Source: Prevotella sp.
GTDB lineage: Bacteria > Bacteroidota > Bacteroidia > Bacteroidales > Bacteroidaceae
DNA length: 64,000 nucleotides
Direction: 5' to 3'
NCBI GenBank assembly: GCA_015060485.1
Contig: SUYI01000009.1
Location: 1 to 64,000 of the forward strand
Each line of letters starts with the position of its first letter. Positions within the stretch are counted from its first letter, which is position 1. A program made the position numbers and the translations under genes. Of the stretch, positions 26,814-35,313 are shown in pieces. Under the pieces are notes generated by a model. The model had not been told where the DNA came from. It searched no databases and saw nothing but the letters and a program-made list of their open reading frames with translations.

Positions 26814-27133
26814 TATCTTTGCATCGTTCATACCCGCGCTTTTGGGCGAATGGGTGGGACGACGACATATTGGAAAGCGTCATTGATGCTTTGTTTTTGG
26901 CTATCTGAAACTTCCACAAATGATAGACCAGTCAAGAGCAACAGCGGAGGTGAATGCTACGGGTGTAGTATATACTCCCGGAGTGTGCCGAGGGCTAACG
27001 ATGCCCTCACGCACACTTTTCGGGGTGCATTATATACTGACCGGCGTGGGTATTCAAACTCTGTTCGTTCACTGGTCGGGCTGTGGAAGGCCTCAGATAG
27101 CGGGACGGGCAGGTGAGGATACCCCGCTTTTTG
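26814..27133 (+). ncRNA. Putative ~300-nt structured RNA with promoter and terminator
   Basis: TATCTTTG at 26814-26821; hairpin AGTGTGC-c-GAGGGC/GCCCTC-ac-GCACACT (26982-27017); terminal AGCGGG...CCCGCT + T-run (27099-27132). Confidence 0.5.
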
Positions 27134-27202
27134 TATGCCGCCATCACTAACTAAGAAACCTCTGACATTTGGGTATCAGTCAGAACAACACGTTGCTGAC
27201 CG

Positions 27203-28129
27203 ATGCCTCAAAACACGGTTGTAAAGAAAAAGCCCGTTGTCGCAAAGCCGTTTATTAAATGGGCTGGCGGCAAAGGGAACCTACTACAAAAGCTGGAAGC
27301 GCTGCTACCTGCTGATTTCGACGATCTTAAGAATGTAACTTACATAGAGCCTTTTGTTGGTGGTGGTGCCATGCTATTCCACATGCTACATTACCACAAA
27401 TGCATCAAGCGTGCAGTCATTAACGACATTAATCCTGATCTCATTCGCTGTTACCAACTTATAGCTGATACACCAGAAATTCTGATAGACCGCCTTAGTG
27501 TCATTGAAAACAACTACTATAGCGTGGAATTCCCAGCAAGGAAGGAGCAATATTATGCCTATCGCGATCAATATAACAGCGAAGGAATTCATCCCGACGA
27601 ACGAGCTGCGTTGTTTATCTTTCTGAATCGCACATGCTTTAATGGCCTTTATAGAGTGAATGCCGCGGGCAAATTCAATGTTCCATACGGGCGGTATAAG
27701 AAACCTCTCATTTGTAATAAAGAGCTGATAATGGAAGACCACCAAGTGCTTAACTCAGTAGAACTGATTATCCGTCAGCCCGGAGATTATAAACTTGTCA
27801 GGCAGAATCTCAGCAAGAATCATGTGAACTTCGTATATTTCGATCCTCCTTATCGGCCTATTAGTGTTACGTCTTCATTTAAGGAATACTCAAATAGTCC
27901 TTTTGGTGATAAACAGCAAGAAGAGTTGAAACTCTTCTGCGACAAGTTGTCTAATCAGAATTGCCTTGTCATGCAGAGTAATTCTGACAGTAAAACCGAG
28001 AATGGAGAATCCTATTTTGAGGAATTATATGTGGGATACGATATCCAGAGGGTCTTAGCAGCTAGATTTATCAATGCAGATCCCGAAAAACGTGTGAAGC
28101 TAACAGAAGTAGTCATTAGAAATTATTGA
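27203..28129 (+). CDS. D12-class (Dam/DpnM-like) adenine-N6 DNA methyltransferase
   Basis: KPFIKWAGGKGNLLQKLE, YIEPFVGGGAMLFHML, VYFDPPYRPIS. Confidence 0.92.
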   Translation: MPQNTVVKKKPVVAKPFIKWAGGKGNLLQKLEALLPADFDDLKNVTYIEPFVGGGAMLFHMLHYHKCIKRAVINDINPDLIRCYQLIADTPEILIDRLSVIENNYYSVEFPARKEQYYAYRDQYNSEGIHPDERAALFIFLNRTCFNGLYRVNAAGKFNVPYGRYKKPLICNKELIMEDHQVLNSVELIIRQPGDYKLVRQNLSKNHVNFVYFDPPYRPISVTSSFKEYSNSPFGDKQQEELKLFCDKLSNQNCLVMQSNSDSKTENGESYFEELYVGYDIQRVLAARFINADPEKRVKLTEVVIRNY

Positions 28130-28132
28130 GCT

Positions 28133-28579
28133 ATGGGAAAGATATTGATACAAGCCAACAATCTTGACACAGTCATAGATACCTTTATGTATATCTATAT
28201 GCATCCTGGCTGCACAAAACAAGAACTGGCAGACTATTGCGGTTTTACGCTCCGGCAGGCAGATTACTACACAAATGCCTGCAAATATCTAGACCTGATA
28301 AATGATGATTGGAGTAAAACTTCTCTTGCAATTGATATTTTTACGAACAATCCAGCAGAAATTTCAGAACGAGTCTACGCAAGAATCATCTCTGATGAGC
28401 TGATGGGGCAGATCTTTGCACGAATCTATGTGCTCCCGAATGAAGACCCATCGACATTCGCTATGGAGCTAACAAAAGAATACTATCCGGGTTATAGCGA
28501 AGCAGTTTATGAGCGGAGGTCGGATAATATCGTGAAATGGTGTAAGAGGATTATTGAGAAAATGAATACAAAATATTAA
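28133..28579 (+). CDS. HTH-like protein of unknown function in methylase operon
   Basis: TKQELADYCGFTLRQADYYTNACKYLDLI looks like winged HTH; 3-bp gap to upstream gene. Confidence 0.6.
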   Translation: MGKILIQANNLDTVIDTFMYIYMHPGCTKQELADYCGFTLRQADYYTNACKYLDLINDDWSKTSLAIDIFTNNPAEISERVYARIISDELMGQIFARIYVLPNEDPSTFAMELTKEYYPGYSEAVYERRSDNIVKWCKRIIEKMNTKY

Positions 28580-28583
28580 AGAT

Positions 28584-30878
28584 ATGGCACATCTAACGGA
28601 ACTACAAGTAGAAAATGTCAAATCGCACATGATGCGCGACGAAGATGCATTAAGAATTAAGTTCAAAGCAAAGAATACCGAATTTGACACTATCAGCAGA
28701 CCTCACAACGAAGTTGAGGCCTATGAGAAAATGGGGTATTCTGTGGTTCGGTCTTCTGCACGCAAAACAACATTATCTCGAAAAAAGGATCATGGCGTGC
28801 AGTTTGAAGATGACGTGTGGTGTATGTTCTATAAACTTGGATTTCGAATTTTGAATGGAGACGAGAAACTTGTTGTTCAATGGGGCCCCAATAAGGAAGA
28901 TACCCAACAACTTGATGTGGTAGCTGTAGGCGATGATGCCATATTCGTTGTTGAATGTAAGGCAGCTCTAACTTCTGTTGGTCACAGTTTCAAGACTGAA
29001 CTAAACAAAATGGAGCAATACATGACTGGTATTACTGAATCTTTACGGCAGATATACGGTAACAAACGAGTAAAATTTATTTTTGCCTCTCGAAACTACC
29101 GTATTAATGACGAAGATATTGCTCGTATGGGAAATGCTGGAATATTCCATTTGAATGACAACTCCTATAACTATATCAACAACCTCATCAAGTCATACAA
29201 AGAATCCGTCATCTACCAATTCTATGGGTTGATGTTTAAGGATGAACTTATAAATGACGATCTGATTAAAATACCTGTTTTGAAGGGCAAGATGGGTGAA
29301 CGTAACTATTATATTTTCTCTATCGAGCCGAGCACGTTGCTAAAGATAGGATTCGTCCTTCATAGAACCCGTGTCAATGATTCTATGGCACCAACGTATC
29401 AACGTCTTCTTGTTCCATCAAGACTGAAAGGCATTACTAATTTTATTGACGGAGGAGGCTATTTCCCAAATTCCATCATCATCAACTTCAGTGCAGCAAA
29501 TGATGAGCTGAAAGTGAAGTTTACACCCATCAGGGCAGAAAAGGACTCCCAATCAGAGTTCGGGTTCCTGCGCATCCCTAATGCTTATGGCATTGCTTAC
29601 ATCATCGACGGACAACACCGCGTGTATGGTTATGCCCAGTCACAACATAAGGAAGACAGCACTATCCCTGTTGTTGCTTTCGAGGGTATGGAATCGGAGG
29701 AACAGCTTAAGATATTCATGGAGATTAACGAGAATCAAAAGGCCGTCAGCCCAAGCCTGCGACTAGACTTGGAGGAAGACCTTTACTGGAAATCAGCTCG
29801 TCTTGATTCTCGCATGAAAGCGCTGCGTTCGTCATGTATCAAAGCTCTTGCAGCCAATTCAAACTATGTGCTTTACAACAAAATCTCTGTTGGCGAAGAT
29901 CCGTCTCTTTTGGCCTTCAAGCCTTTTGATACCGCATTGGGACGCTCAGGATTGATACCCAAAGCCTCTTCAACACAATGGACTGGTGATACTGATGTCT
30001 GCATATACAACACCAACGAGACGGACATTGATAAAGCCATGAAGGATAGCCGTACCAGGATAACAAAGTTCATTGATGATGGCTATGCCATTGCGGACTC
30101 AATCATGACAGAAGAGGTCAAACAAGACTACCTGTTCTCTAACCGAGCCACGTTTGCATTCATTGCTCTCTTGGGGTCTTTGCATACATATCTTATCAAG
30201 ATAAATACAATTAATCCTCAATCATCAATTCCTGATAGAATTGCAGCTGTTGATCCGTACATTCGTCATTTGGCAAACAGTCTCAACAACCTCTCAGACG
30301 AAGACAACCGAATTATCAAAGGTGTGTTGGGACAGGGTGCCGATACATTCTGGCTTCGCTCTTTCCAGAATATCATCAACAAACAATTCCCTGAATATGC
30401 GCCTGAAGAACTGGTAGAATGGAAAGAGACACAAGATCAATCGTTACAGCAGGAAGGCGCAGAGCGCAAGGCAGATATCCGTCGCCAACTCAGAACACTC
30501 CTGTTTGCTCGACTTGAAAAGGTGTATGGTGCAAAATGGTTGAATAATGTGGCCATTCTTAAGAACGCCATTGAAGGTAGAATCATCAAAGAGTATGGTG
30601 ACAACGATGATTTCGATCTGTCTGAATACGATTGGAGAGATTACTTGGAAGTCTCGGAATATCGTGACGTGATTGATAAGAACTTCAGCTATCAGGAGTT
30701 CGAGGAAGTCTTTGCTATTAACATTGGACTTGCTTTTAAATCAAAGAAAGACAAACTCAATTGGATGACGATGATTAGTGAACCCAAAGGTAAAAAGACT
30801 TCTGCTTTGACACGTTCAGATTTAAATCGTCTGGAATTGATCAATACACATTTGGCCAACTTCATTGATGTTGAATGA
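28584..30878 (+). CDS. DGQHR-domain (DndB-like) protein with N-terminal restriction-endonuclease-like domain
   Basis: QLDVVAVGDDAIFVVECKA (PD-(D/E)xK-like) and AYIIDGQHRVYGY. Confidence 0.75.
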   Translation: MAHLTELQVENVKSHMMRDEDALRIKFKAKNTEFDTISRPHNEVEAYEKMGYSVVRSSARKTTLSRKKDHGVQFEDDVWCMFYKLGFRILNGDEKLVVQWGPNKEDTQQLDVVAVGDDAIFVVECKAALTSVGHSFKTELNKMEQYMTGITESLRQIYGNKRVKFIFASRNYRINDEDIARMGNAGIFHLNDNSYNYINNLIKSYKESVIYQFYGLMFKDELINDDLIKIPVLKGKMGERNYYIFSIEPSTLLKIGFVLHRTRVNDSMAPTYQRLLVPSRLKGITNFIDGGGYFPNSIIINFSAANDELKVKFTPIRAEKDSQSEFGFLRIPNAYGIAYIIDGQHRVYGYAQSQHKEDSTIPVVAFEGMESEEQLKIFMEINENQKAVSPSLRLDLEEDLYWKSARLDSRMKALRSSCIKALAANSNYVLYNKISVGEDPSLLAFKPFDTALGRSGLIPKASSTQWTGDTDVCIYNTNETDIDKAMKDSRTRITKFIDDGYAIADSIMTEEVKQDYLFSNRATFAFIALLGSLHTYLIKINTINPQSSIPDRIAAVDPYIRHLANSLNNLSDEDNRIIKGVLGQGADTFWLRSFQNIINKQFPEYAPEELVEWKETQDQSLQQEGAERKADIRRQLRTLLFARLEKVYGAKWLNNVAILKNAIEGRIIKEYGDNDDFDLSEYDWRDYLEVSEYRDVIDKNFSYQEFEEVFAINIGLAFKSKKDKLNWMTMISEPKGKKTSALTRSDLNRLELINTHLANFIDVE

Positions 30879-32293
30879 CATACAAGGAGATATCAAGAAC
30901 GGATAATTCGCTGCGCCCCTATCAGCAACAGGCAAAGGAGGACATCTTCTCTGCCTGGGACGAATGTGATGGCGTGATGTTCCAGATGCCAACTGGTACT
31001 GGAAAGACCCGCCTGTTTTCATCCATCATCAGCGATATCAAGACTTGGAGCGTTCAGAACGGTGAGGACGTAAAAATCCTTATCATAGCACACCGCATAG
31101 AACTGATAGACCAAATCAGTGAGAATTTGGAACGTTATAAAGTTTCACATGCTATTATTGCCGGTGGAAAACCTCGCGATTTAAGATATCCCGTCCAAGT
31201 GGCTTCTGTCCAAACCATAACTCACCGTAACAATCTTGATGTGGCAAGTGACTTGAATGTCAATTTCATTATTGTGGATGAGGCCCATCATTGTGTTGCT
31301 AATTCTTATAAGAAGCTTTGGGACATGTATCCTAATGCAAAAAAACTGGGAGTGACTGCAACACCTTGGCGAATGAACAACGGAGGCTTTGAAAGCGTTT
31401 TCGATAAGATTATCATTTCGCAGTCTATCCAAAGTTTTATTGATGCAGGTTGGCTTGCTCCTTACGACTATTATTCTATCAGCTATAATAGCGAGATTCA
31501 GAAGGAGATTGAATCAATTACCGAGTTTGATGTGGAAGGTGATTATAAGATTTCTGCTTTGGAGAAAAAGATAGACACCTCACGTATTCGAGCTCAATTA
31601 CTGGATAGCTATTTGAAATTTGCCAAAGGCAAGAAGGGGATTATCTATTCTGTTAGCAGAAAACATAGTGACCACATCTGCCAAGAATATCGTGAAGCGG
31701 GTATAAACATCGTTCGTATAGATAGCAAAACACCTAAAGACGAACGAAAACTATATGTGGACCGTTTCAGAAAAGGCCTGATTGATATTATTGTAAACGT
31801 AGATATATTCTCAGAAGGTTTTGATTGCCCTGATATAGAGTTTATCCAATTGGCAAGGCCAACAAGATCGTTAGTGAAGTATCTGCAGCAAGTTGGACGT
31901 GGATTGCGCCCAACAGCAGGTAAAAGCATTTGCCTAATCTTGGATAATGTTGGCCTGCATTTTCAGTTTGGACTGCCTAATTCAGACCGAAATTGGGAGG
32001 AATGCTTTGTGGGGAGTCCACATATTCCAACTCGTAGGAATAGCTCTGGAGGCTCAATGCTTACGGAACATAAAGAGCGAAACTTCTCAGAAGGCACAGA
32101 CGAGATGCAATTGATTGTTGCATCACAAAAGAAAGCTGATGAAGCAACAAAGCAGTGGTCTGATAAAGACTTAGAATTATTAAAGACGTTATTTGAAGAA
32201 AAACAGTGTCCAATAGAAGTTCTTGTTGCTGTTTTCAAACGAAGTGAGGATGAGATAAGGAATAAATTATCTGAATTAGCACCTAAAGAATAA
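30875..32293 (+). CDS. SF2 DEAD/DEAH helicase
   Basis: LRPYQQQAKEDI, MPTGTGKTRL, VDEAHH, VGRGLRPT; 4-bp overlap with upstream gene. Confidence 0.9.
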   Translation: MTYKEISRTDNSLRPYQQQAKEDIFSAWDECDGVMFQMPTGTGKTRLFSSIISDIKTWSVQNGEDVKILIIAHRIELIDQISENLERYKVSHAIIAGGKPRDLRYPVQVASVQTITHRNNLDVASDLNVNFIIVDEAHHCVANSYKKLWDMYPNAKKLGVTATPWRMNNGGFESVFDKIIISQSIQSFIDAGWLAPYDYYSISYNSEIQKEIESITEFDVEGDYKISALEKKIDTSRIRAQLLDSYLKFAKGKKGIIYSVSRKHSDHICQEYREAGINIVRIDSKTPKDERKLYVDRFRKGLIDIIVNVDIFSEGFDCPDIEFIQLARPTRSLVKYLQQVGRGLRPTAGKSICLILDNVGLHFQFGLPNSDRNWEECFVGSPHIPTRRNSSGGSMLTEHKERNFSEGTDEMQLIVASQKKADEATKQWSDKDLELLKTLFEEKQCPIEVLVAVFKRSEDEIRNKLSELAPKE

Positions 32294-33537
32294 TGGCTAC
32301 AATTACTCCCTTCTACCGCTCTGGCAGCAAAGACTTCACCCTCGTAAATGGTGATTGCGTGTCGGTACTTGAATCGTTTGATTTCAAGTTCGACATGATA
32401 TTTGCTGACCCTCCTTACTTCCTGAGTAATGGCGGCATCAGTGTCAGTAGCGGTAAGGTGGTTTGTGTGGATAAAGGAGGATGGGACAAGGCTCCTTCAG
32501 CGGAGTATATTGATGAGTTTAATCGTCGGTGGATCACGGCTTGCAAGGATAAACTGAAAGACAATGGAACCATTTGGATTAGTGGTACCCACCACAATAT
32601 TTTCTCTGTGGCAGACCAGCTGTCAGAATTGGGATTCAAAATTCTGAATGTGGTAACGTGGAATAAGACTGATCCGCCTGACAATGTATCTCATCGTGTG
32701 TTCAAACACTCTGCGGAGTATATCATCTGGGCCAAGAAATCGAAACGGGCTCAGCACCGCTATAATTACGAACTGATGCGCCAACTGAACGACGGCAAGC
32801 AAATGACGGATGTGTGGCGAATGCCGGCAGTGGCGAAATGGGAGAAGTCATGTGGTAAACATCCTACGCAGAAGCCATTAAGTTTGTTGTCGCGCATGAT
32901 CATGGCTTCTACAAAGGAAGGTGACTGGGTGCTCGATCCCTTTAATGGTAGCGGTACCACTGGCATCGCCGCCTCTCTGCTTGGGAGAAAGTATCTGGGT
33001 ATAGATATGGATTCTGGGTATCTTGAACTGGCCTCAAAACGTAGAGAGGAACTGGAAAATGAGGAGGTTAGGCAGGCTTATAAGGAGATGGTGCTGGTGG
33101 ATTTCAATGGAGCCATCCAAGCAGAGCAACCGCATCATGTACTCGTGGGAAGGATTGGTTCTGAAGAGCAATGGGAATGGTTTGAGAAGTCTCACACCTA
33201 TATCTTACCAATCAGCAAAATTCTGTTTATGCCAAAATTGCTTGGTGCAGAATATGTGTTGGCTTTTCTTGGGAAAAATCCGAAGCGGGCCCAGCTGTGC
33301 AGAATATCTTCGGTAAAGCCCCAAGTAAAGACCCGAGAACAGATAGAAGAGATGGCTTCGCATACTTCTTACTATAAGCCAACACGTGACAAAACCTACT
33401 GGCTTATCCATCTGGAAAAGCCATTGGATGAGATAAAAGGAAAGGTGTTCAACAAGTCGTTGTTGCTTAACTTACAAGAGCAGCGTGGAGCCTATTGGAT
33501 TAAGAAATACGAAGAGGCCATCAAGGCGTTTGAGTGA
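32293..33537 (+). CDS. DNA methyltransferase (beta-class N6-adenine/N4-cytosine type, DpnA-like) with C-terminal extension
   Basis: FADPPYFLSNGGISVSSGKVVCVDKGGWD, DPFNGSGTTGIAA; TAATG stop/start overlap. Confidence 0.88.
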   Translation: MATITPFYRSGSKDFTLVNGDCVSVLESFDFKFDMIFADPPYFLSNGGISVSSGKVVCVDKGGWDKAPSAEYIDEFNRRWITACKDKLKDNGTIWISGTHHNIFSVADQLSELGFKILNVVTWNKTDPPDNVSHRVFKHSAEYIIWAKKSKRAQHRYNYELMRQLNDGKQMTDVWRMPAVAKWEKSCGKHPTQKPLSLLSRMIMASTKEGDWVLDPFNGSGTTGIAASLLGRKYLGIDMDSGYLELASKRREELENEEVRQAYKEMVLVDFNGAIQAEQPHHVLVGRIGSEEQWEWFEKSHTYILPISKILFMPKLLGAEYVLAFLGKNPKRAQLCRISSVKPQVKTREQIEEMASHTSYYKPTRDKTYWLIHLEKPLDEIKGKVFNKSLLLNLQEQRGAYWIKKYEEAIKAFE

Positions 33538-34606
33538 CACCTTGTAGTATGTCACTGATTTTGCTCCAATAGTAGTACGCCTCCGGATTACCGCGACGTA
33601 TTTTGGTTAGTTCTTTGCTAACGGCAGCACTAATTTTCATATTCATTGCATCATTAGCATTGCCTGAATATTTCATGATTTCATGCTGGCCATATTCAAT
33701 AGCTGTAGCCAAATAGGCCGCCTTTGCTGCATCGGTTATGGCCTGATCAAGCGTATACCTGCCAACATAGATATGGCTCTTCAACTTATCAACTCCCTCG
33801 GCAAGCAGTTCAAAATCATTGTTGGGGTCAACCTTTCCGCGTGTACCAAGTGCCATTGCTGAATTCCGGATGTCTTCATAGACAATGCTGAGGTCGTCAC
33901 CCTTTCCACGATATGATGACAGTTCAACTACTGCTATCGACTTGAATGTTTCCGCCGTGGTGGCAATGTCTTCTACGGCATCAAACAACCTTCCAATATC
34001 GTGTAGCTGCTTAGCGACGTTGATAGTGGAGTTGTGTGTGCCTTTATAATAGGGAACACCGCATGTATTGGGTGCAAAGGCTGTCAGTTTGTCGCCAAGA
34101 ATATCAGCAACTGACGGTACTCGAATGATGGTTTCGCTATTATCAGTCTTAATGAATGGATGCAAGAGAGGCTTGTCTTCTATCTGATGATAGTGGTTGT
34201 CCTCGAAAAGCACATCGAGTAATACAGAGTCCTCTATCTGGTCAGAATACACCACCTCGAAGAATGATTTGTAATGGCCCTTGGGTACATTGCCGTTCCT
34301 GTTCTCACGTCTGATAGTCTTACAATCAGTAAAGCCATATTTCTCGCAGTTCTGGAGATATTTTTCAATGTCGGTTCCTGGTGGGCATAGAACGTCTATG
34401 TCTATAGAGAGCCTGCGGGCCTTTTCACCGAGTATCAGAAGAAGACTTGTTCCGCCCTTGAAAGTCAGTGGACAGCCTTCCTTGACAAGCATCTCCAATA
34501 GTGAGAAAGCACGAATAACCTTCTCAACAAGTTCGGGGTGTCTGAATTTATGTGATGAACATACTTTGTCAATCCATTCCTTTTCAAAACATTCTTCCTG
34601 TATCAT
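33521..34606 (-). CDS. AbiEii-family nucleotidyltransferase toxin
   Basis: LTFKGGTSLLLILGEKARRLSIDIDV (GGTSL...SxDID). Confidence 0.85.
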   Translation of the reverse strand: MIQEECFEKEWIDKVCSSHKFRHPELVEKVIRAFSLLEMLVKEGCPLTFKGGTSLLLILGEKARRLSIDIDVLCPPGTDIEKYLQNCEKYGFTDCKTIRRENRNGNVPKGHYKSFFEVVYSDQIEDSVLLDVLFEDNHYHQIEDKPLLHPFIKTDNSETIIRVPSVADILGDKLTAFAPNTCGVPYYKGTHNSTINVAKQLHDIGRLFDAVEDIATTAETFKSIAVVELSSYRGKGDDLSIVYEDIRNSAMALGTRGKVDPNNDFELLAEGVDKLKSHIYVGRYTLDQAITDAAKAAYLATAIEYGQHEIMKYSGNANDAMNMKISAAVSKELTKIRRGNPEAYYYWSKISDILQGVTQTP

Positions 34607-35313
34607 TGTATTTCCTTCAAGTCGTTAAGTATTGATTCCTTCTCATTTCGACGGTCTGCATATCTTAGCAGACGGGTCTGGTTAACGTTATAATGGGTGA
34701 CGGCGGTTCTAAGCATCTCTAAATTCTCATAGCCATGCAGATAGTAGAAGTCGGGATCAACCCTTGTATCTACCAATAATTTCTCTATGGTAGGGACGGG
34801 CACTTTTCCGTCAAACATTAGTGGAGATTCTGTAACGAGTGGTTTTACAATGATGTTCTCGCTGCTAAAATCAATGTAGGTCGATGCTATTTTCTTAGTA
34901 GGAGAGAGGAAGAGACGTCCCTTATGTTTTGGTAGCAACACGTTGAAAACACTCTCCGTAACCTCACGGTTTGTCTCGATATAGACAGTGTTGTTCGGCG
35001 TGAGGTCATGCAGTAAGGGAGTAATGACACCGCCACCATAAACGCAAAAGTCTGCTAGTGGAAACTGCTTTGACAAAGACTTGTATAGCGAACGGGCTTT
35101 AGTATTGGCTTTCACCTGAAATGAATTAGAGATGTGAGCAGTATATATACCACGTCCAATCCTCTTCAGCTTTCCTTGTCTGCAAAGATTGCTCAAATGC
35201 CAGCTGAGCGTATTCCTTGCAATTCCAGCAGTAACCTCTATCGGCATGTCGTCAATTGCAAACTGCTGAAGGCCATTGGCATAGTTCATGATGTTGTTAC
35301 TTACTCCTACCAT
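34603..35313 (-). CDS. AbiEi-like antitoxin/regulator
   Basis: N-terminal wHTH (ARNTLSWHLSNLCRQGKLKRIGRGIYT), 4-bp overlap with the AbiEii gene. Confidence 0.78.
   Translation of the reverse strand: MVGVSNNIMNYANGLQQFAIDDMPIEVTAGIARNTLSWHLSNLCRQGKLKRIGRGIYTAHISNSFQVKANTKARSLYKSLSKQFPLADFCVYGGGVITPLLHDLTPNNTVYIETNREVTESVFNVLLPKHKGRLFLSPTKKIASTYIDFSSENIIVKPLVTESPLMFDGKVPVPTIEKLLVDTRVDPDFYYLHGYENLEMLRTAVTHYNVNQTRLLRYADRRNEKESILNDLKEIQ

Follow-up and report, generated by a model that had tools for sequence, protein, structure and literature searches.

The DpnII restriction-modification (R-M) system consists of DpnM, DpnA and DpnII, that is, a D12-class adenine methylase, a second, beta-class methylase and a nuclease. 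Pneumococcal DpnA is a single-strand DNA methylase (PMC3573125), and an R-M system that methylates adenine at GATC has been shown experimentally in P. intermedia (PMC5608340). The effectors of SspABCD-SspE and IscS-DndBCDE-DndI (PMC11662687) and of GmrSD (PMC4619093) join a ParB/Srx-type NTPase domain to a nuclease; the DNA with which such effectors are known is phosphorothioated or hypermodified. The ParB/Srx superfamily, which includes the DUF262 domain of GmrSD, SspE and DndI, also takes in the DGQHR domains (PMC4619093; PMC11662687); these occur in DndB, reported as a transcriptional regulator (PMC4507180), and in DpdB, described as a ParB-like ATPase (PMC12839542). Here we describe an operon of five genes, A to E, on contig SUYI01000009.1 of a Prevotella sp. 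of the Bacteroidales, from gut or rumen (assembly GCA_015060485.1), whose first 64,000 nucleotides, hereafter the window, were analysed. On balance we favour, with some confidence, the reading that this operon is a DpnII-derived R-M-type defence without the original DpnII nuclease, whose place as restriction effector has gone to the NTP-dependent product of gene C. Classical adenine methylation would thereby be linked to an uncharacterised effector architecture of the ParB/DndB NTPase superfamily.

A methylase pair enclosing three other genes

The five genes occupy positions 27203-33537 of the + strand. A check of the open reading frames in the window found all five intact and co-directed, with junctions of +3, +4, -4 and -1 bp, exactly the spacings given in an earlier reading of the DNA made from its letters alone (the sequence-only reading). 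Gene A (27203-28129, +) encodes a D12-class adenine-N6 DNA methyltransferase of 308 aa and of the DpnM/Dam type, which matches TIGR00571 (1e-75) and MethyltransfD12 (4e-53) and carries a DPPY motif. Its nearest relative in the PDB is DpnM (2DPM, 2e-50, over the whole length), and residue comparison showed the target-recognition hairpin FNGLYRVN..FNVPYGRYK as in DpnM. Judging from this hairpin and from synteny, the target of A is most likely GATC, a specificity that the P. intermedia system makes plausible in this group.

At the other end lies gene E (32293-33537, +), encoding a beta-class adenine DNA methyltransferase of 414 aa and of the DpnA/CcrM type. Residues 12-257 form the methylase part (PF01555, N6_N4_Mtase, 7e-58), and its PDB relatives are CcrM (1e-56) and H. 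pylori DpnA (5HEK, 1e-28). The C-terminal extension of E, about 150 aa long (window 33080-33537), has no family match; the 414-aa form was found in 6 of 140 genus genomes and carries the extension in 6/6.

We compared the operon with a canonical DpnII operon (L165), which encodes a D12 methylase, the DpnII nuclease and an E homologue behind the same leader RNA as that of the window operon (see below). Identities to the window proteins were 51% for the relative of A and 63% for that of E (62.7% between E and this second, DpnA methylase). In both operons the D12 methylase comes first and the beta-class methylase stands at the other end; they differ in that the window operon has B, C and D in place of the nuclease. 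The DpnII family (PF04556) matched none of the five genes nor anything else in the window genome, so that a DpnII nuclease encoded elsewhere in this genome is ruled out. The sequence-only reading had likened the methylase pair to DpnM/DpnA and had remarked on a PD-(D/E)xK-DGQHR protein and a separate helicase standing in for a DpnB-like nuclease, and both remarks are borne out here.

The contents of the bracket formed by A and E are interchangeable. Besides DpnII in the canonical operon and B-C-D in the window, two loci (L029:4984-10644 and L031:4788-9756) encode DpnM, DpnII nuclease, C and DpnA, with a DpnII match of 4.5e-95 in L029. A fourth content, Pbe-like genes with a B-type protein, was seen at L164:2329-11478, where PbeA-/PbeC-like genes (PLD-helicase and CxC/DndD-type ABC ATPase), a DUF7226 protein and a sigma-70-like gene lie inside a D12...E bracket whose E is the 414-aa form, 93% identical to that of the window. 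L164 thus apparently pairs a Pbe-type system with adenine methylation, not with phosphorothioation. These loci offer a testable case of the exchange of restriction modules against a constant background of modification pair and leader RNA.

Gene C and its linkage to the D12 methylase

Gene C (28584-30878, +; 764 aa) combines a PD-(D/E)xK nuclease-like domain (residues ~1-205), a ParB/Srx-type DGQHR domain (~230-410) and a helical C-terminal region. The DGQHR domain matches TIGR03187 (4e-33, residues 232-409), and the DGQHR letters themselves are encoded at 29607-29621. By sequence the nuclease-like domain gave sub-threshold matches only (NERD 0.004, Card1 0.007), and PDB sequence searches with B and with C returned no matches. 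AlphaFold models of ten sequences gave the N-terminal domain confidently (pLDDT mostly 85-93 for residues 11-200). When Foldseek was run against the PDB, the PD-(D/E)xK nucleases Cdn1, Card1 and AF1548 were the best matches (prob 1.00), while the whole-chain model gave no match below E 0.001; the predicted domain folds like those of Card1/Cdn1, AF1548, McrC and Hjc. E75, D111, E124 and K126 are invariant across the ten-sequence alignment. Among 25 homologues of C, D111 is present in all and E124 together with K126 in 18, while the QR, DGQHR and FxxIN motifs are kept in 25/25. The fusion of a PD-(D/E)xK domain to a DndB-like DGQHR domain, as proposed from the letters, is upheld by the predicted fold and by this motif conservation, and the nuclease motif has support from predicted structure.

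A domain scan found no HNH nuclease match in C. In this respect C differs from SspE, DndI and GmrSD, whose nuclease is a C-terminal HNH domain, whereas that of C would be an N-terminal PD-(D/E)xK domain; their motif is DGQQR, that of C DGQHR. The partner of C is adenine methylation, and, unlike the Ssp and Dnd systems, that of the window has no phosphorothioation genes. Although the DGQHR domain is shared with DndB and DpdB, C scored far below the cut-offs of their models (DndB, 36 bits against 328, 3.5e-9; DpdB, 57 bits against 300, 2e-15) and carries the additional nuclease domain. DndC (TIGR03183) is absent from the window genome, which rules out a phosphorothioation system. The window operon is therefore neither a DpnII system, since the nuclease is missing, nor a Dnd system, since DndC is missing. 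The mixture of R-M and Dnd parts described earlier holds for the R-M part; the Dnd part amounts to domain homology.

When species genomes were scanned and whole families searched, full-length C was located beside a D12 methylase at 23 distinct loci in Bacteroidota and Paenibacillaceae, and in 23/23 C follows a co-oriented D12 methylase. C is rare, being found in 6 of 395 sampled genomes of the order (the window genome included) and in 6 of 300 Paenibacillaceae. The order A-B-C-D-E is not a chance arrangement, since besides the window it is present in L011, L012 and L014, with 84-97% protein identity. Other loci read A-B-C-E-D (L018), A-B-C-D (L013, L015, L016), A-C-D (L017), A-C with a helicase remnant, most of D being lost (L005), and A-DpnII-C-E (L029, L031). 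Eleven (L028, L030, L032, L072, L073, L019 and L065-L069) have A and C only, without B, DpnII nuclease, D or E, although some of these pairs have further neighbours, such as a 650-aa helix-turn-helix (HTH) protein upstream in L028 and L030. Since A and C are present throughout and stand alone as a pair in 11 loci, the conserved core is a two-gene unit of methylase and nuclease-NTPase, to which B, D and E are add-ons. The five-gene unit of the sequence-only reading thus recurs as an order in three further genomes, but the reduced loci (A-C, A-C-D, A-B-C-D) rule out a fixed set of five. In L016 (12744-14027) the place of E, directly after D, is taken by an HNH-like gene (weak HNH_2 match) and a 148-aa gene.

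The search of viral contigs found no relative of C, and in phages the match was limited to the DGQHR part. On plasmids, full-length relatives were found only in alphaproteobacteria and with other neighbours (radical SAM, second DGQHR, PIN and ATPases). Two such plasmid regions, L006:6206-16594 and L007:9878-20280, encode a homologue of C whose ExK motif is altered, a second DGQHR protein and radical SAM, ATP-binding and PIN-like proteins, and may represent a further uncharacterised cluster for DNA modification or defence.

The accessory gene B (28133-28579, +; 148 aa) belongs to family DUF7226 (PF23871, 5e-14) and also matches the C-terminus of the PADLOC model REase_II PDLC03513 (8e-8). Its AlphaFold model is a winged helix (pLDDT 94, with winged-HTH matches), in agreement with the HTH protein noted before. 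At L027 a 428-aa DUF6996-DUF6997-DUF7226 protein adjoins a D12 methylase, and the PADLOC type II restriction enzyme model PDLC03513 shares the C-terminal region of this protein, where DUF7226 is located. By domain comparison, B corresponds to the C-terminal domain of a type II restriction enzyme partnered with a D12 methylase, here encoded on its own: both loci place DUF7226 beside a D12 methylase, in L027 inside the larger protein and in the window as a separate one. Gene D (30875-32293, +; 472 aa) encodes an SF2 helicase/translocase (ResIII 1e-28, Helicase_C 3e-18), matched by the RadD model (1.5e-41) and by the helicase half of PbeA (7e-31), and has no nuclease domain of its own. Unlike the archaeal PbeABCD and CxC-ABC ATPase systems (PMC6459918, PMC10853773), the window operon lacks an ABC ATPase or PLD domain. 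The domain assignments made from the letters for A, C, D and E all hold, and, as had been suspected, the combination matches no named system: PADLOC, NCBIfam and Pfam have no model for it, and we found no paper describing it. Literature searches for DGQHR with methyltransferase and helicase returned nothing relevant, and none for DUF7226 returned a paper; a 2024 reappraisal of Dnd and 2026 BREX papers treat DndB/ParB, and in the passages retrieved from them the pair A-C is not described.

A proposed restriction mechanism and its alternatives

In the mechanism that we favour, A would methylate adenine in double-stranded host DNA at its probable GATC target. E would be a DpnA-like second methylase of the same or an overlapping site and, because pneumococcal DpnA methylates single-strand DNA, might by analogy protect newly entered or replicating DNA. 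The DGQHR domain of C would bind DNA and NTP and read the methylation state, and NTP turnover would license the PD-(D/E)xK domain to cut DNA without the host mark, as in SspE, DndI and GmrSD. B may add DNA binding or target recognition, and D may translocate on the target or unwind it. At the 11 loci that have A and C only, C is the single evident restriction candidate. The distances of A and of C correlate (Mantel r 0.81, p 0.0005), in favour of this mechanism, and the AbiE toxin-antitoxin pair that lies beside the operon in the window and in L014 supports a defence role.

We would go further only tentatively, at somewhat less than even confidence, and suggest that with C begins a new class of restriction enzymes, nucleases of the PD-(D/E)xK type that depend on NTP and are controlled by a ParB/DGQHR domain. 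With a Dam-like methylase C would form a minimal two-gene R-M system in Bacteroidota and Paenibacillaceae, and in Bacteroidales it would have been inserted between DpnM and DpnA, a bracket in which different restriction modules are exchanged behind a shared attenuator-like leader. The form with two genes is of a size that can be cloned and tested directly.

Several observations weigh against a restriction role for C. Seven of the 25 homologues (L072, L073, L067-L069, L006, L007) lack E124 or K126 while all keep the DGQHR motifs, so the nuclease is maybe not the essential function of C everywhere. C coexists with the DpnII nuclease in L029 and L031, where a second nuclease is not obviously needed; this and the loss of the motif are the strongest objections. 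Homologues of C in L006 and L007 lie with radical SAM and other genes, without a D12 methylase. Confidence in the model of the DGQHR core is low (pLDDT <50 in some stretches), and the correlation between A and C distances also mirrors shared ancestry.

The first two of these observations, and the roles reported for DndB and DpdB, speak for an alternative in which C acts in regulation or is coupled to modification, comparable to DndB, an ATP-modulated repressor, or to DpdB, a ParB-like ATPase that serves the insertion of bases into DNA. The PD-(D/E)xK domain would then aid DNA binding or nicking, and restriction would come from D, B or another gene. We consider this unlikely, although it is the strongest of the alternatives: the loci with A and C only offer no other evident restriction gene, a 760-aa protein with a PD-(D/E)xK fold is unneeded for regulating one methylase, and the full nuclease motif is kept in all DpnII-containing and window-type loci, whereas DndB itself has no nuclease domain. 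Somewhat less probable still is a type IV-like, modification-stimulated effector, in which C would be activated or tethered by the mark that A makes and would then nick phage DNA or deplete nucleotides, in the way that SspE and DndI act with phosphorothioate DNA. These two, the closest mechanistic analogues with a ParB-type NTPase and a nuclease, do use modification-stimulated NTPase activity (PMC11662687), and the methylase is invariably paired with C; however, the sequence data fit sensing of methylated and unmethylated sites alike, and in classical DpnII operons, which share this A/E bracket, it is unmethylated DNA that is cut. Orphan methylases of the DpnM/DpnA type are common, E is mobile and L005 lacks most of D, but orphan or regulatory methylases with passenger genes and no restriction activity are a very improbable account of five intact frames, a five-gene order shared by four genomes at 84-97% identity and an A-C pair kept across two phyla.

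The leader RNA and a neighbouring gene pair

Upstream of the operon span noted earlier, positions 26825-27202 (+) encode a structured 5' leader. Its ~330 nt preceding A show conservation in L011, L014 and L018, for the most part also in L012, and turn up again at other places in the genus (L034-L058; L074-L143). The leader ends in an intrinsic terminator-like hairpin and U-run (27044-27132), ~70 nt before the A start codon. Folding was stronger than in shuffled sequences (minimum free energy z = -6.5). The consensus from 17 sequences has 55 pairs, and 17 of these pairs show compensatory changes, which extend to the terminal hairpin before the U-run, a count that related sequences inflate; pair counts exceeded all 500 shuffles on 4/5 measures. 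Rfam gave no match at E<=1, and a covariance model matched in 83 of 150 genus genomes, where the weak matches may be due to chance.

Among 46 first genes 3' of the leader, 16 encode C5-methylases, 7 D12 and 2 N6/N4 methylases and 2 Eco57I-type enzymes, and single restriction-enzyme families also occur; these genes were taken mostly from behind the best matches, those most similar to the window leader, and the counts have no background rate. Weaker matches precede surface-polysaccharide and other genes. The leader, which stands before many R-M operons of the genus, appears to be an attenuator or a target of antitermination used throughout the genus, and the predicted terminator suggests transcription attenuation. 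Between the window and L018, nucleotide identity is 84.8% in the leader and 79% in E and only ~60% in A-D, which indicates that E, and probably the leader too, travelled or recombined independently of A-D.

On the other side of the operon, an AbiEii/AbiEi toxin-antitoxin pair (window 33521-35313, -) is convergent with it, and this pair is kept beside the operon of L014.

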